NCBI GenBank assembly: GCA_020852515.1
Contig: JADZAS010000021.1
Coordinates: forward strand, 62,001 to 126,000
From: Phycisphaerales bacterium
Lineage (GTDB): Bacteria; Planctomycetota; Phycisphaerae; Phycisphaerales; UBA5793
DNA: 64,000 bases
Reading direction: 5' to 3'
Positions within the stretch are counted from its first letter, which is position 1. Each line of letters opens with the position of its first letter. The notes beneath the pieces were generated by a model. The model had not been told where the DNA came from and searched no databases. It was given only the letters and a program-made list of their open reading frames with translations. Shown in pieces: positions 1,884 through 56,288 of this stretch. The position numbers were made by a program, and so were the translations under genes.

Positions 1884-2666
1884 ATGAGCCCGACGGCATT
1901 GCCTCCGATCGCGCTCCAGCTTTTCACCATTCGCGATCAGACCGAGAACGATCTGCCCGCCGCGCTTGAGCAGGTTGCCAGCATCGGCTTTGACGGCGTC
2001 GAGTTCGCCGGACTCTTCGGCCATGAGCCAGACCAGGTCCGCAGCGTCCTCGACCGGCTCGGCCTGCGGACATGCGGCACGCACATCAGCCTCGAGCGGC
2101 TCAACTCCGACATCGGCCAGTGCATCGACGAAGCGCACAGCCTGGGCGCCGATCTCATCGTCATTCCCTACCTCACCGAAGAGTACCGAACCGAAGACGG
2201 CTATCGGCAAGCCGTGGCCCAGATGCTCGCCATCGCGTCGCGCCTGCACGGCCGGGGGCTGCGGCTGGCGTACCACCACCACAACTTCGAGTTCCAGACC
2301 TTCGGGCCGGATTCGGCGCGGCGCGGGATTGACGTGATCGCCGATGCGCCCGCCGACCGGCTGCTGCTCGAGATCGACGTGTACTGGTGCCGCCATGCAG
2401 GCACCGACCCGCTCAAGTTTCTCACGCGCCACGTGCGGCGGACGCCGCTGCTGCACCTCAAGGACATGCGCGACGCGCGCAGCCGCAGGTTCGCCGAGAT
2501 CGGCTCGGGCATCATTGAGTTCGGCCCGATTCTGCGCACCGCGGCGCAGGGCGGCGTCGAATGGTTCATCGTCGAGCAGGACCGCGACTTTACCGGCTCA
2601 TCGCTCGACTCGGCGCGCGCGAGTTTCTCGGCGCTGCAGCGATTGTGCAAGGAGGCGCTGGCATGA
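1884..2666 (+). CDS. sugar phosphate isomerase/epimerase (xylose isomerase-like TIM barrel)
   Basis: A 260-residue protein of the AP_endonuc_2/xylose-isomerase-like TIM barrel family. It starts [19 protein letters not shown] and has [12 protein letters not shown], a [10 protein letters not shown] strand, the YHHHNFEFQ strand typical of these enzymes, [24 protein letters not shown], and a C-terminal [10 protein letters not shown]. The histidines and acidic residues on these strands are the expected divalent-metal ligands. The start is the ATG at 1884, with an AGGGAGA ribosome-binding site just upstream. Family members isomerise or epimerise sugars; the substrate cannot be read from sequence. 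Its stop overlaps the start of the next gene (ATGA), suggesting co-translation although the functions look unrelated. Confidence 0.85.
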
Positions 2667-3397
2667 CGACAGGCCGCAACGGGCTGCGCGCGGCGCGGCA
2701 GATGGTCCAGGCCGGACAACTGCTCGGCGTGGACTTCGTGGCCCTGCCGGCGCGCGTGAGCGAGCCGCCCGCCAGCGCGGAATTGCCCGCGGGCGCGCCG
2801 GCGCCGGCCGCTTCACCGAAACAGGCGCTGCTCGACGCCCTGCGGCTCCGGCATGATCGCGAGTGCGCCCACTGCACCGCCGCCACCGCGCACACGCGCA
2901 CGGTCTTTGGCGAGGGCAACCCCGACGCGCGGCTCGTGTTCGTCGGCGAAGCCCCGGGCGCTGAAGAAGACAAGACCGGCCGGCCCTTCGTCGGGCGCGC
3001 CGGCCAGTTGCTCGACAAGATGATTACGGCGATGGGACTCAATCGCGAGGACGTCTACATCGCCAACGTCCTCAAGGCTCGTCCGCCCAACAACGCCACG
3101 CCGACGCCCGCGGAAGTCATGAACTGCGCGCCGTACCTCGCCGAGCAGCTGCGCATCATCGCGCCTGAGGCTATTGTCGCACTGGGCGCCCCGGCCGCCA
3201 AGTTCCTGCTGAACACGACCGAGGGGATCTCATCGCTGCGCGGCACATGGCACGCCTGCCGCCTCGAAAACCTCGAGATCCCCGTCATGCCGACGTTCCA
3301 CCCTGCGTACCTGCTGCGCAACTACACGCCCGATGCGCGCGGCAAGGTCTGGTCGGACCTGCAGATGGTGATGAAGCGACTCAATGGCGATGCGTAG
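2663..3397 (+). CDS. uracil-DNA glycosylase, family 4 type
   Basis: A 244-residue protein. Motif 1 is [20 protein letters not shown] (about residues 92-111) and motif 2 is [11 protein letters not shown] (about 210-220), both diagnostic of family 4 UDGs, which remove uracil from DNA to start base excision repair. Family 4 enzymes carry a 4Fe-4S cluster held by four cysteines. Here C68 and C71 (CAHC) and C155 (in the MNCAPYL stretch) are present, but the cysteine of the usual KCRPP motif is alanine (KARPP, A139). Either the cluster uses another ligand or it is altered. The first 50 residues are Ala/Pro-rich and look disordered. The ATG overlaps the upstream stop. The TAG stop lies inside a palindromic repeat. 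Confidence 0.88.
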
Positions 3398-3430
3398 GTC
3401 GGGACCGCTGCTCTGAGCGCGGCCCGGCAG
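3391..3430 (+). repeat. REP-like palindrome, family A, copy 1 (supplies the UDG stop codon)
   Basis: Begins GCGTAGGTCGGGAC and ends GCGGCCCGGCAG, matching both feet of the family A repeat seen at 3483-3520 (inverted), 23631 and 55213, with a diverged centre. CGGG/CCCG and CCGC/GCGG can pair around a bulged A. The TAG at 3395-3397 is the stop of the glycosylase gene. Confidence 0.65.
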
Positions 3431-3482: not shown

Positions 3483-3520
3483 CTGCCGGGCCTGCGCCGA
3501 GCCTTGTCTCCGACCTACGC
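3483..3520 (-). repeat. REP-like palindrome, family A, copy 2, inverted (supplies the FAH stop codon)
   Basis: Read on the minus strand it begins GCGTAGGTCGGAGACAAGG and ends GCGCAGGCCCGGCAG. It is the same element as copy 1 in opposite orientation, so the two form a head-to-head pair filling the gap between convergent genes. The TAG at 3517-3515 (minus) terminates the hydrolase gene. Confidence 0.72.
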
Positions 3521-4385: not shown

Positions 4386-4419
4386 TTGACAGATTCGACA
4401 TCATCTGCGATGCTCTATA
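4386..4419 (+). promoter_or_regulatory. possible promoter for the prepilin-like gene
   Basis: A perfect TTGACA lies at 4386-4391, in a locally AT-richer stretch, 110 bases before the gene. The best -10 candidates (GATGCT at 4408 with 16-base spacing, or TCTATA at 4414) are poor or badly spaced, so this is only a weak suggestion. Confidence 0.25.
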
Positions 4420-4502
4420 GGGGCTCGTCGGCCGCGATCGCCGGGCGGCACCCAGTTCTCCGGTCCGACTTTCGTCGGATCCTTCGGAAAGGCGGTAGAC
4501 TC

Positions 4503-5321
4503 GTGGCTCAGCCTCATCGCATGCGTGCCCATCGCGGCTTCACCCTGATCGAACTGCTGGTGGTGATCTCGATCATCGCGCTGCTCATCAGCCTGCTGCT
4601 GCCGGCGCTGGGTCAGGCGCGCGAGCATGCGCGTCGGAGCGCCTGCGCTTCGAACCAGCGGCAGATCGGTTACGCGCTGCACATCTACGCGACGGAGTAC
4701 AAGGACTTCGTGCCGCGCGAGGGCAAGTACCATGAGCCGCGCGGCGGAAACGTTTACGCGTACTACTACCCGTGGCCCCGCGCGTTCTACAAGTACGTCA
4801 GACCGTTGACGGACTCGCGGATGAACAACCTCGACAGCACGGTGTGGCTCGACCACGGCTTGTTCGACGACATGAAGCAGTACCAGTGCCCGTCCTATCC
4901 GAATCCGCTGCACGTGGTGCACTACATCAACAACGGCATCATGATGCAATGGGGGGGAAACGGCCTTTATCGCGATGGGCGGCACCCGACAGCGCCGCTG
5001 AGCGAGTTCATTCAGCCCGACCACGCGATGTATCTCTCAGAGTTTACGGACGATCCTGACAACTCTATTTCGCAGCAGATGCAGAACTACCCGTATCTCG
5101 ACCACTGGTACGACGTCTTCCTCGAAGTGCACATCAACGGCCCCGAGGACAACTCCAACGGCTGGGGCGGCAACATCGCGCGCATCAGCAGCAAGCGCCA
5201 CCTCGGCAACGGCTCCAACGCCCTCTACGCCGACAGCCACGTCGAGTTCCGCGAGCGCGAAGTGCTGCGCGATCTCGACAGCTGGGACGACAAGACGTAC
5301 AACAACTCCTGGTGGCGGTGA
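4503..5321 (+). CDS. type II secretion/pilin-like protein with prepilin N-terminal methylation motif
   Basis: A short basic leader ends at a glycine and is followed by [20 protein letters not shown], the class III (type IV prepilin) cleavage and membrane motif with the glutamate at +5. The rest is a periplasmic domain rich in Tyr, Trp and Asn. Near the C-terminus [17 protein letters not shown] resembles the H-X9-DG motif of planctomycete DUF1559-type pseudopilins, with one extra residue and DS in place of DG. I chose the GTG at 4503 because GGAAAGG lies 10 bases upstream; the ATG at 4521 has no ribosome-binding site but would give an equally good leader. It is likely cleaved by a prepilin peptidase and assembled into a pseudopilus or left as a surface protein. 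No pilus machinery is adjacent. Confidence 0.85.
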
Positions 5322-5356
5322 TCCAAGCCGGGGCGAAGGCTTTGCGCCGTCTTGGA
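5322..5356 (+). repeat. REP-like palindrome, family A variant, left of the transposase
   Basis: Imperfect inverted repeat beginning TCCAAGCCGGGGCG and ending GCGCCGTCTTGGA around an AAGGCTTT centre. It starts directly after the prepilin-like gene stop. Its near-identical inverted partner is at 5935-5974, so the pair brackets the transposase gene. Confidence 0.7.
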
Positions 5357-5385
5357 TTCGCGAGTGATCGTGGAGATCTGATGAG

Positions 5386-5928
5386 ATGCCGCGCCCAGGA
5401 TTGATTTGGCGCCACGTCATCATCAGCACGCAAAATGCATGGCTGCCGGGGGACCAGCGCGGATGGCGCAGCCGCGAGCATCGGTTGCATTCCAGCGGTG
5501 ACTACGGGAACCCACCTCCCTCGCACGAGCATGCGGGTTTGCGATGTCATGCGAAGTCGATCAGCGGTCCGGCGGTCGTAGTTCCGATCGAAGTCCGGCC
5601 GATCATCGGCGCGAGGCTGCTCGAAGGTCTGTTCGGTCAAGGCGTGCGCGTGCTGGTCATCGCGGTGGCGGGCATGCACGCGCATCTTCTCACGGAACTT
5701 CCAGAGGATCGACGAGCCGCGAAACAAGTCGTGGGTAAGGCGAAGAACTTCTCATCGCGCAAGGTGCGGCGCCTCGTGCCGGGCCGAATCTGGGCGGGCG
5801 GCGGTGCGCTGAAGCCAATTCGGGACAAGGCTCATCAGCGTAACACGTACCGCTACATTCGCGACCGACAGGGTGTCGGGGCGTGGGTGTGGACGTTTCG
5901 TGAGCCGGTGCCTCTGCTGAGTGATTGA
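5386..5928 (+). CDS. Y1 (HUH) transposase-like protein, probable REP-associated tyrosine transposase
   Basis: 180 residues. The central strand VRVLVIAVAGMHAHLLTELP carries the HUH-type pair H98 and H100 (usually HVH). The C-terminal helix YRYIRDRQGVGAW contains a YIxxxQ motif in which Y157 is the probable nucleophile, as in IS200-type TnpA. Conserved family-like blocks include ISTQNAWLPGDQRG, HSSGDYGNPPP and RIWAGGGALKPI. Such single-domain Y1 proteins are common in planctomycetes and resemble RAYT proteins, which nick and rejoin single-stranded DNA at GTAG-footed hairpins. The gene has no IS partner gene and is bracketed by inverted palindromes. The frame is intact and all expected residues are present, so it may be active. 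Confidence 0.75.
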   Translation: MPRPGLIWRHVIISTQNAWLPGDQRGWRSREHRLHSSGDYGNPPPSHEHAGLRCHAKSISGPAVVVPIEVRPIIGARLLEGLFGQGVRVLVIAVAGMHAHLLTELPEDRRAAKQVVGKAKNFSSRKVRRLVPGRIWAGGGALKPIRDKAHQRNTYRYIRDRQGVGAWVWTFREPVPLLSD

Positions 5929-5934
5929 GCCACG

Positions 5935-5974
5935 TCCAATCCGGGGCGGCGCAGAGCCTTTGCCCCGGCTTGGA
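5935..5974 (-). repeat. REP-like palindrome, family A variant, inverted, right of the transposase
   Basis: On the minus strand it reads TCCAAGCCGGGGCAAAGGCT, continuing into a 3' half GCGCCGCCCCGG. It is a close inverted copy of 5322-5356 with a stronger stem (CCGGGG/CCCCGG). Confidence 0.72.
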
Positions 5975-5983
5975 GTGCGCAAG

Positions 5984-6011
5984 CCGGGACGAAGGCTCGG
6001 CGCAGTCCCGG
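5984..6011 (+). repeat. REP-like palindrome, family A, direct copy
   Basis: CCGGGAC and GTCCCGG form a perfect 7-bp stem around GAAGGCTCGGCGCA, the conserved centre of family A. It lies 10 bases beyond the inverted copy and 22 bases from the lepA stop, making a two-repeat cluster on this side of the transposase. Confidence 0.7.
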
Positions 6012-6032
6012 AACCGTGGCGAGCGTCGCCCG

Positions 6033-7832
6033 CTACTCCTCCGTCTCCAGCACGCTCATGAAGGCGGCCTGCGGGATCTCGACATTGCCGATCATCTTCA
6101 TCCGCTTCTTGCCTTCCTTCTGCTTTTCGAGCAGTTTGCGCTTGCGCGTCACATCGCCGCCGTAGCACTTGGCGGTGACGTTCTTGCGGACGGCCTTGAT
6201 GGTTTCGCGCGCGATGATCTTGCCGCCGATGGCCGCTTGGAGTGGAATCTCGAACTGGTGCCTGTCGATCTGCTTCTTGAGCTTGACGAGCAATGCCCGG
6301 CCGCGATGTTCAGCCTTGTCGCGGTGGCAGATGAGGCTGAGCGCATCGACCGGGTTCCCGTTGACGAGAATCTGGAGTTTGACGAGCCGATCGGCGCGGT
6401 AGCCGATCAGTTCGTAGTCCATCGTGCCGTAGCCGCGCGTGATGGACTTGAGGCGGTCGTAGAAGTCGTAGATGATCTCGGCCAGGGGGAGTTCGTAGTC
6501 GAGGATGTTGCGCGTCTCGGAAAGGTACTTCTGGTCCTTGTAGATGCCGCGCCGCGTCTCACACAGGCGCATGATGTCGCCGATGAACTCGGTCGGGCAG
6601 ATGATCTCGACGCGAACGATCGGTTCGCGGATTTCGACGACGTTGCTCATGTCGGGCAGGTCGGCGGGGTTGTTGATCGGCAGCGTCGTGCCGTCGCGCA
6701 GGCCGATTTCGTAGCTGACGGTGGGGGGCGTCTGGACGATGTCCACGCCGCCTTCGCGCTCGAGCCGCTCCTGGATGATGTCCATGTGGAGCATGCCCAG
6801 GAAGCCGCAGCGAAAGCCGAATCCCAGCGCATCGGAATGGTGCGGCTCGTAGGTGAACGAGGCGTCGTTGAGGTGAAGTCGCGTGATCGCCTCGCGCAGC
6901 GCTTCGAACTCGGCTCCCTTTTCGCCGCTGCTGCTCGGGTAGAACTCGCAGAACACCATGCGCTGCGGCTCCTGGTAGCCCGGCAGCGGCTCGGCGGCGG
7001 GATCGACGTCGCGCGTGACTGTGTCGCCGATGCGCACATCGACGAGCGTCTTGATCGCGGCGATGAAGTAACCCACCTCGCCGGCGGCCAACTGGTCAAC
7101 CTTGGTCGGCTTGGGCGTGTACCGGCCGAGTTCGGTGATCGTCCACACCCGGCCGCTGGACATCATGCGGATGCGGTCGCCGGCTTTGAGTTGGCCGTCG
7201 AACACGCGCACGTACACGACGACGCCGCGATAGTCGTCATAGACCGAGTCGAAGATGAGAGCCCGCGTCTGAGACACGAGCGACTGGCGCGGCGGTGGGA
7301 GGCGGTCGCAGATCGCCGCCAGGAGGTGATCGATGCCTTCACCCGTCTTGGCCGAGCAGTTGGTGCACTCCTCGGCGGGGATGCCCAGGACGTGCTCGAT
7401 CTCCATGGCCGTGTCGAGCGGCAGGGCGCCGGGCAGGTCGATCTTGTTGACGGCGGGGATGAGTTCGACGTTGTTGTTGACGGCCAGGTAGGCGTTGGCG
7501 ACCGTCTGCGCCTGCACGCCCTGGGTGGCGTCTACGACGAGGATGGCCCCTTCGCAGGCGGTCAGGGCCCGGCTGACCTCGTAGTGGAAATCGACGTGGC
7601 CGGGCGTGTCGATGAAGTTGAGCTGGTAGTTCTCGCCGTTGTGGCGGTGAAAAACCGTGACGGCGGACGCCTTGATGGTGATGCCCCGCTCGCGCTCGAT
7701 GTCCATGTCATCGAGGAGCTGAGCCCGCGCATCGCGATCGGCGACGGCATGGGTGGCCTGGAGGAGCCGATCGGCCAAGGTGGACTTGCCGTGGTCGATA
7801 TGGGCAATGATTGAGAAGTTGCGGATGTGCAT
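6033..7832 (-). CDS. lepA: elongation factor 4 (ribosomal back-translocase LepA)
   Basis: 599 residues, the standard length. It begins MHIRNFSIIAHIDHGKSTLA with the G1 P-loop, then ERGITIKA (G2), FIDTPGHVDF (G3), AVNKIDLPGA (G4) and the LepA-specific GLRDGTTLPINNPADLPD and YRADRLVKLQILVNGNPVDA blocks. The C-terminal KCYGGDVTRKRKLLEKQKEGKKRMK is the signature LepA C-terminal tail. This translational GTPase acts on stalled or mistranslocated ribosomes. It is transcribed alone and convergent with the transposase gene. All GTP-binding motifs look intact. Confidence 0.97.
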   Translation of the reverse strand: MHIRNFSIIAHIDHGKSTLADRLLQATHAVADRDARAQLLDDMDIERERGITIKASAVTVFHRHNGENYQLNFIDTPGHVDFHYEVSRALTACEGAILVVDATQGVQAQTVANAYLAVNNNVELIPAVNKIDLPGALPLDTAMEIEHVLGIPAEECTNCSAKTGEGIDHLLAAICDRLPPPRQSLVSQTRALIFDSVYDDYRGVVVYVRVFDGQLKAGDRIRMMSSGRVWTITELGRYTPKPTKVDQLAAGEVGYFIAAIKTLVDVRIGDTVTRDVDPAAEPLPGYQEPQRMVFCEFYPSSSGEKGAEFEALREAITRLHLNDASFTYEPHHSDALGFGFRCGFLGMLHMDIIQERLEREGGVDIVQTPPTVSYEIGLRDGTTLPINNPADLPDMSNVVEIREPIVRVEIICPTEFIGDIMRLCETRRGIYKDQKYLSETRNILDYELPLAEIIYDFYDRLKSITRGYGTMDYELIGYRADRLVKLQILVNGNPVDALSLICHRDKAEHRGRALLVKLKKQIDRHQFEIPLQAAIGGKIIARETIKAVRKNVTAKCYGGDVTRKRKLLEKQKEGKKRMKMIGNVEIPQAAFMSVLETEE

Positions 7833-20646: not shown

Positions 20647-23625
20647 ATGTCGCCCACAACCGCCCGGCCTCGCCCCGTGACCATTGACCCTGAAATGATC
20701 AACGCACCCGAATCCGCCCCCGTCGCCGACGCCGGCGAGGCGATCCTCAATTCGACCGATGTGTTCGCCGACCGGCACATCGGGCCCAGCGACGACGAGA
20801 TCGGGCTCATGCTCGAGCGCCTCGGCTGCCGCACGCTCGATGAACTGACCGACGCCATCGTGCCGGATTCGATCCAACTCGGCCGGCCGCTGAAGATCGA
20901 AGAAGCGCAGAGCGAGTTCGACCTCATCGCCGAGCTGCGCACGATCGCTGGCCAGAACAAGGTGAACCGGTCCTTCATCGGCATGGGCTATCACGGCTGC
21001 ATCACGCCGCCGGTCATCCAGCGCAACATCCTCGAGAATCCGGGGTGGTATACGCAGTACACGCCGTATCAGGCGGAGATCTCGCAGGGGCGCCTCGAGG
21101 CGCTGCTCAACTTTCAGACGATGATCGCGGACCTCACCGGCCTGCCGCTGGCGGGCGCTTCGCTGCTCGACGAGGCGACAGCGGCGGCAGAGGCGATGGC
21201 GATGTGCTTTGCCATCGCCGGCGGCGCGTCCGGCACGCGCAAGTCGTTCTTTGTCGCCGAGCATTGTCACCCGCAGACCATCGCGGTGGTCAAGACCCGA
21301 GCAAGCTCGATGGGGATTCGCGTTGTGGTGGGCGATCCCGGCGCAGTCGATTTTTCGGCCGGGTTATGCGGCCTGCTGGTTCAGTATCCCACGACGGACG
21401 GCCGCGTGGCGGACTATTCGAAACTGGCCGAGGCGGTGCATGCAAACGGTGCTCTGCTCGTGGTGGCGGCCGATCCGCTGGCGCTGGCGCTGCTCAAGCC
21501 GCCAGGCGAGTTCGGGGCTGATATTGCCGTAGGAAGCACGCAGCGCTTCGGTGTGCCGATGGGCGCGGGCGGCCCGCACGCCGCGTACATCGCCACGCGC
21601 GAGCAGTACGTGCGGCGCATGCCCGGCCGCATTATCGGCGTGTCGCGCGACGCCACGGGAAAGCCGGCCCTGCGCATGGCCATCCAGACGCGCGAGCAGC
21701 ACATCAAGCGGGAGAAGGCGACGAGCAACATCTGCACGGCCCAGGCGCTGCTGGCCATCATGGCCGGGATGTATGCGGTCTATCACGGGCCGGCAGGGCT
21801 GCGGCGCATCGCCGGGCGCGTGCACGCGCTGACGGCGGCGCTGATCGTCGGCGTCGAGCAACTCGGCCACGAGACGCTCGGCGACGGCCCCGTGTTCGAC
21901 ACGCTGCGCGTGCGATTGGGTGCAGGCGTCGCGGCGTCTGCGGTGCACAGGGCCGCTGGCGAACTGGGCATCAACTTCCGCTTCTACAGCGACGACACGA
22001 TCGGCATCACGCTTGACGAAACGGTCTGCCCCGATGACGTTCGCCACATCCTCACGGCTTTGACCGGCAACGCGGCCAAACCCGTCGATGTGCGCGTTGA
22101 CGAACTGCTCGCCGCCGCACGCAGCCGCGGTCTGCTCAAACTCGGCGCCTTCGAGCGCACGAGCGCGTATTTGGCGCACCCCATCTTCAACTCGCACCAC
22201 AGTGAAACGGAGATGCTGCGCTACATCACCAAACTGCAGTCGCGCGACCTGTCGCTGGCGCATTCGATGATCGCGCTGGGCTCATGCACGATGAAGCTCA
22301 ATGCGACCAGCGAGATGGTGCCCGTGACCTGGCCCGAGTTTGGCAACATCCATCCGTACGCACCGGCCGACCAGATGCGCGGCTACGCGCGGCTGTTCAG
22401 CGACCTCGAACGCTGGCTGTGCGAAATTACGGGTTTTGCCGCCGTCTCGCTCCAGCCGAACGCGGGCTCGCAGGGCGAGTATGCGGGCTTGCTCGCCATC
22501 CGCGCCTATCACGAGTCGCGCGGCGACACGCGGCGCGACGTCTGCCTCATCCCCGTTTCCGCGCATGGGACCAATCCGGCCAGCGCCGTCATCGCGGGCT
22601 TCAACGTCGTGGCCGTCGAGTGCGACCGGCATGGCAACGTCGATCTCAATGACCTGCGCGCCAAGGCGAAGGCACACGCCGACCGCCTCGGGGCGCTGAT
22701 GATCACCTATCCATCCACGCACGGCGTGTTCGAGCCTCAGGTCAAGGACATCTGCGCCGCGGTGCACGAGTTCGGCGGGCAGGTGTACATGGACGGGGCG
22801 AACATGAACGCGCAGGTCGGCCTGTGCCGCCCGGGCGACATCGGCGCGGACGTGTGCCACCTCAACCTGCACAAGACCTTCTGCATTCCGCACGGCGGCG
22901 GCGGTCCGGGCATGGGGCCCATCGGCGTCGCCCAGCACCTCGTGCCCTTCCTGCCCGGCAATCCGGTGACCGATGACGGCCGCGCGGTCGGCGCCGTGGC
23001 CGCGGCTCCCTACGGCAGCCCGAGCATCCTGACGATTTCGTGGGTCTACATCGCGCTGATGGGCGCCGCGGGGCTTCGCAAGGCCACGCAGGTGGCGATG
23101 CTCAACGCCAACTACATGGCCAGCCGCCTCAAGGAGCACTACGACGTGCTCTTCAGCGGCGTGGGCGGGCACGTGGCCCACGAGTTCATCCTCGATTTCC
23201 GAGGCTTTGAGAAGACTGCCGGCATCAAGGTCGAAGACGTCGCCAAGCGGCTCATGGACTACGGCTTCCACGCGCCGACGATGAGCTTCCCCGTGCCCGG
23301 CACGCTCATGATCGAGCCGACCGAGAGCGAGCCCAAGGCCGAACTCGATCGCTTCTGCGATGCGCTGATTCAGATCCGCGAAGAGATTCGCGCGATCGAA
23401 GAGGGCAAATCAGACAAGGCCGACAACCCGCTCAAGCACGCGCCGCACCCGATCCAGGTCGTCGCCGCCGACGAGTGGAGTCACACGTACAGCCGCGAGC
23501 AGGCGGCGTACCCCGCCGCGTGGCTGCGCGACGCGAAGTTCTGGCCCCCGGTGGCGCGGATTGACAATCCCTACGGGGATCGAAATCTCATCTGCACCTG
23601 CCCGCCGATGAGTGAGATGGAGTGA
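20647..23625 (+). CDS. gcvP: glycine dehydrogenase (aminomethyl-transferring), P protein of the glycine cleavage system
   Basis: 992 residues: a full fused P protein (N- and C-terminal halves of the alpha2 type), with an extra 25-30 residue N-terminus. [21 protein letters not shown] opens the core. [20 protein letters not shown] and, in the second half, [19 protein letters not shown] are signatures; K743 in the latter should bind pyridoxal phosphate. It decarboxylates glycine and loads the aminomethyl group on the H protein lipoate. No gcvT, gcvH or lpd lies beside it, so the other subunits are elsewhere. I looked for a glycine riboswitch in the 278 bases upstream and found none. Confidence 0.96.
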
Positions 23626-23630
23626 CGCTG

Positions 23631-23667
23631 CGCAGGTCGGCACAAGGCTCTGCGCAGGCCCGGCAGG
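23631..23667 (+). repeat. REP-like palindrome, family A, copy after gcvP
   Basis: Reads CGCAGGTCGGCACAAGGCTC and continues to GCGCAGGCCCGGCAGG. It shares the AAGGCTCTGCGCAGGCCCGG core with the copy at 55213. It starts six bases beyond the gcvP stop, in a gap between convergent genes. Confidence 0.68.
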
Positions 23668-53796: not shown

Positions 53797-55191
53797 ATGA
53801 GCGACACGGTTGATTTCATCCTGCCCGATCTTGGCGAAGGCGTTCACGAAGCGGAGATCATCTCCTGGAAGGTGAGCGTCGGCGACAAGGTGGAGGAGAT
53901 GCAGGTGCTCGCCGAAATGGAGACGGACAAGGCGCTCGTCGAAGTCCCCAGCCCCTACGCCGGAAAGGTCGAGGCGCTGCACGGCGACGTCGGGCAGATC
54001 GCTCACGTCGGCGAGCCGATCGTGACGTTCAGCGGCGCGACGCAGAGCGGCAAGACCGTCAAAGGCAACGGCGCAGCGCCGAAGGCGGATCATCACGTCG
54101 AGACGAAAGCCGATGCGAAGCCGCAAGGCGCCGGCCCGGCGCGCGCCAGTGGCGGCGTCGATGCAGCCGAGCAAACCGAGCGCGAAGACGCGGGCACGGT
54201 CGTGGGCTCGATGGAAGGGCTTCCCACGCTGGGCGGCGGCGGCAAGGTCATGGCCACGCCCGCGGTGCGCCGGCTCGCCCGCGACAAAGGCATCGACATC
54301 AACACCATCCAGGGCACCGGGCGCGGCGGGCGCGTGACCGCTTCGGATGTGGAGCGGGCGGCGCAGGGGGGTGGGCGCGTCGGCGCAGCAAAGGCGCCGG
54401 CGGGCAAGCCGCGCGAAGCCGCAAGCGGCGGGGCGGCGATCGCCGCGGTGTCGCAGCCCATTTCCTATCCGCCGGTGCAGGTGGACGCGAGCGGCACGTC
54501 GCAGACGATTCCCTTCACCGGCATTCGACGCAAGATCGCCGAAGCGCTCGATCGTTCCGTCAAGACCGCGGTGCACTTCACCGTCATGGATGCGGCAGAT
54601 GTGACGGCGCTCGATCGCGTTCGCCGCCAGCAGGCGCACGCATCGGGCGAGAAGGTGAGTTTCCTGCCGTTCATCATTCAGGCGATGTGCCGGGCTCTCA
54701 AGCAGTTCCCGCAACTCAACGCCGTGGTGGACGATGAGAAGCGCGAGATCTACATCAAGGGCGTGATCAACATGGGCGTGGCGGTGGACACCGACCACGG
54801 CCTGATGGTGCCGGTCATCCCCGGCGCCGATCGCATGGGCATCCTGCCGCTGGGCCGGGCGATCAACGACGTGGCGGCCAAATGCAAGAGCCGCACCATC
54901 GGGCTCGACCAACTCAAGGGCGGCACGATCACGATCAGCAATGTGGGCAGTTACGGCGGCGCGTTCGCCACGCCGATCATCAACTACCCGGAGGTAGCCA
55001 TTCTCGCCGCCGGCCGGGCCCGCGAAGCGGTCATGGCGCGCAACGGCGGGATCTTCGTCGGCAAGGAGATGCCGCTGAGCCTGTCATGCGACCATCGCGT
55101 GGTCGATGGCGCTTACGGCGCCAAGATGCTCAACGCCGTCGTGCAATTCCTCGAGAATCCGGAGATTCTCCTCGAACCCGCGGGTCGATGA
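53797..55191 (+). CDS. dihydrolipoamide acyltransferase (E2) of the pyruvate dehydrogenase complex
   Basis: 464 residues; GAGAAGG upstream of the ATG. One lipoyl domain (LPDLGEGVHEAEIISWKV) with the modifiable lysine K45 in METDKALVEV. An Ala/Lys linker follows, then a peripheral-subunit-binding domain at about 151-189 (ATPAVRRLARDKGIDINTIQ). In the catalytic domain SLSCDHRVVDG contains H433 and D437. It moves the acyl group from lipoamide to CoA. Pairing with E1-beta suggests pyruvate as substrate, but a branched-chain 2-oxoacid complex cannot be excluded. lpd (E3) is not in the window. Confidence 0.9.
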   Translation: MSDTVDFILPDLGEGVHEAEIISWKVSVGDKVEEMQVLAEMETDKALVEVPSPYAGKVEALHGDVGQIAHVGEPIVTFSGATQSGKTVKGNGAAPKADHHVETKADAKPQGAGPARASGGVDAAEQTEREDAGTVVGSMEGLPTLGGGGKVMATPAVRRLARDKGIDINTIQGTGRGGRVTASDVERAAQGGGRVGAAKAPAGKPREAASGGAAIAAVSQPISYPPVQVDASGTSQTIPFTGIRRKIAEALDRSVKTAVHFTVMDAADVTALDRVRRQQAHASGEKVSFLPFIIQAMCRALKQFPQLNAVVDDEKREIYIKGVINMGVAVDTDHGLMVPVIPGADRMGILPLGRAINDVAAKCKSRTIGLDQLKGGTITISNVGSYGGAFATPIINYPEVAILAAGRAREAVMARNGGIFVGKEMPLSLSCDHRVVDGAYGAKMLNAVVQFLENPEILLEPAGR

Positions 55192-55212: not shown

Positions 55213-55248
55213 GCGTGGGTCGGGACAAGGCTCTGCGCAGGCCCGGCG
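55213..55248 (+). repeat. REP-like palindrome, family A, copy after the E2 gene
   Basis: Reads GCGTGGGTCGGGACAAGGCT and continues to GCGCAGGCCCGGCG. GTCGGG pairs with CCCGGC (one wobble). It fills the gap between the convergent E2 and dihydroorotate-dehydrogenase-like genes. Confidence 0.7.
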
Positions 55249-55280: not shown

Positions 55281-56288
55281 TCAGATCGGCCGGCCCGCGA
55301 ACGCCACGAGCGAGCGCATGTAGTTCACCCGCTCGAACGCTTCGGGGTTGGGGCAGTTCTCGCGCGAGAGGCTTCCTTTCAGCTGCTGGACCGAGGTGTA
55401 GTCCTTGGCGACGAGCCAGTCGTGCAGGCCCCTTTCGAGGCGGGTGAAGTGTTCGGGGCCGTGGCGGTACATGGCCGAGGCGAGCATGGCGGCGTCCGCG
55501 CCAACGAGCAGCATCTTCACCAGATCTTCAACGTCGTGGATGCCGCTGGTCGCGGCGAGATACGCCCCGACCCGGCCGCGAAGCATGGCGATCCACGTCA
55601 TGCTCAGGCGCGATTCGTACGACTCACTCAGCGAGAAGTTGGGGAAGAAGTCGAGCGTTTCGAGATCGATGTCCGGCTGGATATAGCGGTTGAAGATCGT
55701 CAACCCGTCGGCGCCGGCGTCCGTCAGCCGCCGCGCGAAGTGACCCAGCGAACTGAAGTACGGCCCGATCTTGACGGCCAGCGGAAGGCGCACCGCCTTG
55801 CGCACCGCGGCGACGAGATCGAGGTAGCGCTTCTCGACATCCTCGCCGCTGTGACGCGGATCGCTCGGAACGAAGTAGACGTTCAGTTCGAGCGCATCGA
55901 CGCCGGCATCTTCGATGAGCCTGGCGAAGTGAATCCACCCGCCGACGGTCATGCCATTGAGGCTGCCGATGATCGGGAAGCGCACGGCGTCGCGCGCTGC
56001 GCGCAGCCGGCGGAGGTACTCGGTCGGCCCGACGTTGTAATCCTCGAGTTCGGGGAAGTACGAGAGCGATTCGGCAAACGATTCCGTGCCGTACTCATAC
56101 AACCCAAAGACCTGCTGCTGCTGGAACTCGATCTGCTCTTCGAAGAGCGACGGGAAGACCGCCGCGGCGGCGCCGGCGCTTTCGAGGCGCAGGAGGAACT
56201 CCGGATCCTGATTGAGCGGACAGGCGGATGCGATGAGCGGGTTGCGCAGCGTCAGGCCGAGATAGCGGGTGCTCAGATCGACGTTCAT
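55281..56288 (-). CDS. dihydroorotate dehydrogenase-like FMN protein linked to pyruvate:ferredoxin oxidoreductase
   Basis: 335 residues, TIM barrel of the DHOD family: RYLGLTLRNPLIASACPL, FPIIGSLNGMTVGGWIHFA, DALELNVYFVPSD, LPLAVKIGPYFSSL, GADGLTIFNRYIQPDIDLE and AATSGIHDVEDLVKMLLVGA (FMN phosphate site). The catalytic Ser/Cys loop of true PyrD is not obvious. Its ATG overlaps the nifJ stop by four bases. This gene pair recurs in many anaerobes and facultative bacteria, so it probably serves an electron-transfer or accessory role for PFOR and not pyrimidine synthesis. That role is inference. Confidence 0.82.
   Translation of the reverse strand: MNVDLSTRYLGLTLRNPLIASACPLNQDPEFLLRLESAGAAAAVFPSLFEEQIEFQQQQVFGLYEYGTESFAESLSYFPELEDYNVGPTEYLRRLRAARDAVRFPIIGSLNGMTVGGWIHFARLIEDAGVDALELNVYFVPSDPRHSGEDVEKRYLDLVAAVRKAVRLPLAVKIGPYFSSLGHFARRLTDAGADGLTIFNRYIQPDIDLETLDFFPNFSLSESYESRLSMTWIAMLRGRVGAYLAATSGIHDVEDLVKMLLVGADAAMLASAMYRHGPEHFTRLERGLHDWLVAKDYTSVQQLKGSLSRENCPNPEAFERVNYMRSLVAFAGRPI

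Follow-up and report, generated by a model that had tools for sequence, protein, structure and literature searches.

A class 3-related Y1 transposase with a probable REP family of its own, and an unrelated orphan GTAG REPIN family with the same loop, in a Phycisphaerales genome

The transposase locus

The 64,000-nucleotide stretch of Phycisphaerales DNA analyzed here (the window; its genome is G000) carries an open reading frame (ORF) for a 180-aa protein between a prepilin-like ORF on the 5′ side (4386–5321) and lepA on the 3′ side (6033–7832, minus strand). An earlier note, made from the DNA letters alone, described a solitary Y1/HUH gene inside inverted palindromes, with a further palindrome copy behind it. 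All of this was borne out: the residues H98, H100, W136, and Y157 do not vary among 12 relatives, the bracketing arms (5322–5358 and 5938–5974, 37 nt) are 86% complementary, and the further copy (5980–6012) forms inverted arms with 5940–5972 (85%). The window contains the following features.

5386..5928, plus strand: predicted Y1/HUH single-strand DNA transposase, class 3-like, 180 aa (H98-A-H100, W136, Y157, Q162)
5322..5358, plus strand: 5′ hairpin, REP family D, short (S) loop; its start abuts the stop of the prepilin-like ORF
5938..5974, minus strand: 3′ inverted hairpin, REP family D, S loop
5980..6012, plus strand: third D-like hairpin, direct orientation; G005, which is without the gene, has a D-like hairpin at the equivalent lepA-side spot
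3394..3427, plus strand: REP family A, GTAG foot, long (L) loop; left REPIN half
3483..3519, minus strand: REP family A, S loop; right REPIN half
23636..23664, plus strand: REP family A, S loop, singlet, directly 3′ of the stop of ORF 20647–23625
55217..55247, plus strand: REP family A, S loop, singlet, between ORFs 53797–55191 and 55281–56288

A planctomycete clade beside class 3

No Pfam family matched the window protein, which scored 18.1 bits against the NCBIfam model REP_Tyr_transpos (NF047646; cut-off 80). Among the 12 relatives, ten matched REP_Tyr_transpos (E up to 0.1) and five matched Y1_Tnp. When a profile of these relatives was compared with solved structures, the best six matches were all Y1 transposases, at weak E-values (0.011–0.069); the structures found included ISDra2, IS608, and TnpA-REP (4er8). 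An AlphaFold model built from four sequences, used because a single sequence gave a useless prediction (pLDDT 33), reached a mean pLDDT of 74 and ~90 over most of residues 61–170, with residues 18–60 poorly modelled. Its fold brought up ISDra2, IS608, and TnpA-REP within the top 30 structural matches.

Phylogenetic analysis of 65 Y1 proteins placed the window protein in a clade of 20 proteins from several planctomycete families (support 96/97), in keeping with the distinct clade that the earlier note had proposed. This clade is sister to, and not nested in, a group of 22 proteins (support 100/93; 85/86 jointly with the window clade) recognized as class 3 by published motifs (NHVH, W[TA], and Y....Q; PMC6006769), not by reference sequences. 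It stands apart from class 2 RAYTs and from both IS200-like proteins encoded in G000, so the tree that the note called for puts the window protein outside both the IS200 and the classical RAYT groups. The HAH motif, taken in the note as a mark of the clade in place of HVH, is not diagnostic: clade members have HAH, HYH, HLH, HFH, or HVH. By these comparisons, the window protein is predicted to be a Y1/HUH single-strand DNA transposase of a planctomycete clade sister to class 3 TnpA-Y1.

Previous work has reported both GTAG REPs and hairpin-flanked class 3 TnpA-Y1 genes from Planctomycetes (PMC3733652, PMC6006769), and class 3 is distributed across Planctomycetes, Acidobacteria, and Proteobacteria (PMC6006769). 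Like class 3 proteins (~178 aa; PMC6006769), the window protein has an HuH motif and a single catalytic Tyr, and an extended conserved N-terminus, YGTWLxGDxRG, is common to its clade and the canonical-motif class 3 group. For the class 3 motifs W[TA] and Y....Q it has WA and Y157-IRDR-Q162, whereas many clade members have WQ or WG and lack the Q. In place of NHVH the window protein has MHAH and the clade HxH. Unlike class 3, the clade also carries the block H-x-x-H-[SV]-x-G-D-Y-x-x-P-P-P.

Two further gene arrangements were observed among Y1 loci. In a window-clade paralogue in G000 (L007:2345-3160, on C30) and one in G002 (L031), the coding sequence between HuH and Tyr includes the palindrome AAAGCCCGGGGATGGCTATCCCTGGGCTTT in frame, and related palindromes flank these genes. 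Elsewhere, in two genera, an ORF for a class I tRNA synthetase contains, in the same frame, a Y1 domain (DHVH..YM[LW]MNP) that scores above the cut-off of REP_Tyr_transpos (L047, G002:C33:16573-16977; L052, G001:C2:477574-477984). The host ORFs, with frames of 1365 and 1262 aa, match Pfam tRNA-synt_1 plus an anticodon domain and are ValS/IleS-like; such an intein-like placement is surprising.

Family D hairpins accompany the gene

Stem D (CAAG-CCGGGGC..GCCCCGG-ATT) borders the window gene and a relative in G003, and occurs at a few dispersed sites. As in class 3, the gene is thus flanked by atypical hairpins with genomic copies, although its hairpin foot is CAAG or CACG and not the CnGA of class 3. 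Inverted repeats scoring at least 14 without gaps surround 15/20 window-clade genes and 20/21 class 3 genes (maximum in shuffled flanks, 13), and their sequences vary between genes. In the G003 relative (52% identical), a different loop tops the stem GCCGGGGC..GCCGCCCCGGAT of the window gene. A 56%-identical relative in G001 is without any such flanking hairpins.

Pattern searches, which give lower bounds here and in all genome-wide hairpin counts below, matched stem D 7 times in G000, 10 times in G003, once each in G004 and G005, and never in G001 or G002; the reversed pattern gave 0 matches. Both genomes with more than one stem D match have the gene or a close relative. The low copy number of D counts against the REPtron reading proposed below, as does the G001 relative. 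Some D copies form inverted doublets ~45 nt apart, oriented like the gene's own hairpin pair, so that a doublet resembles a version of the element in which a short spacer stands where the gene would be. The doublets in G000 (L152, L158, and L162, on C5 and C15) lie in-frame in paralogous genes for secreted repeat proteins and encode a segment of the protein. Because the G000 matches away from the gene, where read, fall in this one paralogous gene family, they may stem from few insertions.

The junction also differs between sister species. In G005, the prepilin gene (93.6% DNA identity) and lepA (LepA 98% identical) are in place and the transposase is missing, with a D-like hairpin beside lepA. 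In G002, a short spacer holds neither transposase nor hairpin. The gene and its hairpins were thus gained or lost within the genus. No exact empty site that includes the target sequence was found; the G005 junction holds unrelated DNA.

The inverted hairpins and the missing gene at the same junction would also suit an ordinary IS200-like insertion sequence with its own ends, and the predicted fold and catalytic residues resemble those of IS200/IS605 elements (IS608, ISDra2). We regard this explanation as improbable. Those elements are multicopy, whereas the genome has one full-length copy of the window gene, with paralogues only 32–43% identical; the gene falls in a different clade from the IS200-like proteins of G000; and the genome contains dispersed doublets of this hairpin that lack the gene.

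Family A is a separate set of GTAG REPINs

The earlier note had treated seven palindrome copies as one family, with a core recurring at 3391, 3483, 23631, and 55213. They fall into two families that differ in stem and 5′ foot (CAAG versus GTAG) and have only the loop in common. All four of the recurring copies belong to stem A, GTAG-GTCGGGAC-loop-GCCCGGC, a GTAG REP like those described before (PMC3733652). The core does recur at the latter three positions (AAGGCTnnGCGC at 3494 on the minus strand, 23644, and 55227), but the copy at 3391 carries the same stem with the loop CGCTGCTCTGAGCGCG. A loose core of 12–14 bases alone occurs at chance level within the window, and significance comes from whole hairpins. 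The pattern TCGGGACAAGGCTCTGCGCAGGCCCGGC with up to 3 mismatches had 19 matches genome-wide and its reversed control 0.

Family A loops are either short (AAGGCTCTGCGCAG) or long (CGCTGCTCTGAGCGCG), and copies of the two kinds pair in inverted doublets of 113–122 bp, of which there are seven. One is the window pair 3394–3427/3483–3519 (the copies at 3391 and 3483), which is intergenic; all A copies in the window are extragenic. Family A thus has the published REPIN arrangement (inverted doublets, mostly outside genes and with a fixed short spacing; PMC3116915), whereas D doublets lie inside coding genes. At 3394–3397, the GTAG foot supplies the TAG stop of an upstream uracil-DNA glycosylase-like ORF (2561–3397).

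Several hairpins of the two families directly follow ORF stop codons (5321, 3397, and 23625), as ordinary transcription terminators or mRNA hairpins would, in which case the adjacent transposase would be incidental. This is very unlikely given the conserved loop and foot, the inverted doublets at fixed spacing, the in-frame copies within coding genes, and the inverted bracketing of 15 of the 20 clade genes.

Family A had 23 matches each in G000 and G005 and 2–6 in each of the three remaining species of the genus. Between species, the number of D copies tracks the gene and the number of A copies does not: G005 has its 23 A copies without a close relative of the gene, and G003, with a close relative, has 10 D and 3 A copies. 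None of the Y1 genes found in G000 has A flanks. We infer that a different system, with a transposase not found in this assembly, accounts for the stem A REPINs of the window.

One apical loop on at least six stem families

The S loop, RAGGCTYTGCGM, is the sole feature common to families A and D. In G000 it had 57 matches and the reversed control 12; the corresponding figures were 145/11, 90/10, 49/12, and 20/11 in four sister species, compared with 4/7 in a sister genus. We read 52 distinct contexts in G000, of which 42 fall in six stem families (A–F) and ten are background-like; besides A and D, at least four more stem families are therefore topped by this loop. Stem B brackets a class 2 RAYT (C30:49435), stem C another Y1 clade in G003–G005, and stems D and E window-clade genes; in G005, a further GTAG stem surrounds a class 2 RAYT. 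Stem F (CCTGAGC..GTCGAAGGG; L085, L086, L103, and L110 in G000) has the loop and no linked transposase. Two other loop modules, GCGACGCTYYGGGAGCG (L) and AGTCTTCG, are likewise common to different stems. Pairing across the loop, pooled over all 52 sites, showed no more than a modest excess (7.4 versus 6.7 of 12 pairs), in part because ten of the sites are background.

We also considered sharing of this loop across the phylum and rejected it: among 246 genomes, no strong enrichment over the control appeared outside the genus, and three genomes there (G135, G156, and G070) had a mild excess. A literature search for the loop sequence gave no REP paper among the matches listed, most of which were on PCR assays. 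Loops common to GTAG-3 and GTAG-14 have been noted before (PMC3733652), so loop modularity as such is not new; what appears to be new is how far it goes within a single genus and between deep transposase clades.

A loop identical in D and A raises the alternative that the window transposase serves D, A, and perhaps other families by reading AGGCTYTGCG and not the stem, and Group 3 TnpA-REP does need particular loop bases (PMC8266576). We consider this unlikely, since A numbers are independent of the gene, the close relative in G003 retains stem D while its loop differs, the same loop tops hairpins beside class 2 and other Y1 genes, and the feet differ (GTAG in A, CAAG in D). A shared loop does not imply a shared transposase.

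A probable REPtron and its implications

The locus is most likely a REPtron, that is, a single-copy and probably host-kept Y1/HUH transposase from a class 3-related clade, with the flanking inverted stem D hairpin as its putative substrate. The REP/RAYT-like layout first read from the sequence survives to that extent, with a Y1/HUH enzyme and dispersed hairpins, but the dispersed copies then cited as its repeats carry stem A. As in class 2 RAYT/TnpA-REP systems (PMC2817692, PMC3116915), a single-copy Y1 enzyme is bracketed by hairpins that recur as inverted doublets. The window protein nevertheless lies outside the class 2 clade, well below the NCBIfam cut-off, and the gene's own hairpins lack the GTAG foot, which belongs to family A. 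RAYT-like genes bracketed by terminal inverted repeats have been described as TIRtrons (PMC3733652); what differs from that account is one loop spanning at least six stem families in one genus and the hairpins of several deep Y1 clades.

Binding, cleavage, and mobilization of the hairpins by the window protein would follow the course known for TnpA-REP and IS200/IS605 enzymes (PMC8266576). The enzyme would recognize and bind the hairpin while the DNA is single-stranded, as in the lagging-strand template. H98 and H100 would hold the metal, and Y157 would attack and cut near the hairpin foot. By strand transfer, the enzyme may then excise and insert REPIN doublets, each arranged like the gene's own hairpin pair but with ~45 nt of spacer where the gene would be.

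It is unusual for six or more hairpin families to share a tip sequence when their stems are unrelated, and this is the unexpected part of the analysis. We tentatively suggest, as a possibility short of an even chance, that the loop modules S (RAGGCTYTGCGM), L (GCGACGCTYYGGGAGCG), and AGTCTTCG are interchangeable among unrelated stems cognate to several deep Y1 clades, implying either loop exchange between families or a shared loop-reading factor. In the latter version, a common factor would read the loop and each transposase its own stem and foot.

Overall, the window holds a probable class 3-related REPtron with its own REP family and, beside it, an unrelated orphan GTAG REPIN family with the same loop. 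Class 3, a side of the TnpA-Y1 superfamily that has received little study, thereby gains a defined clade, matched hairpins, and natural stem/loop recombinants, and these natural stem/loop pairs make recognition of foot, stem, and loop separately testable.
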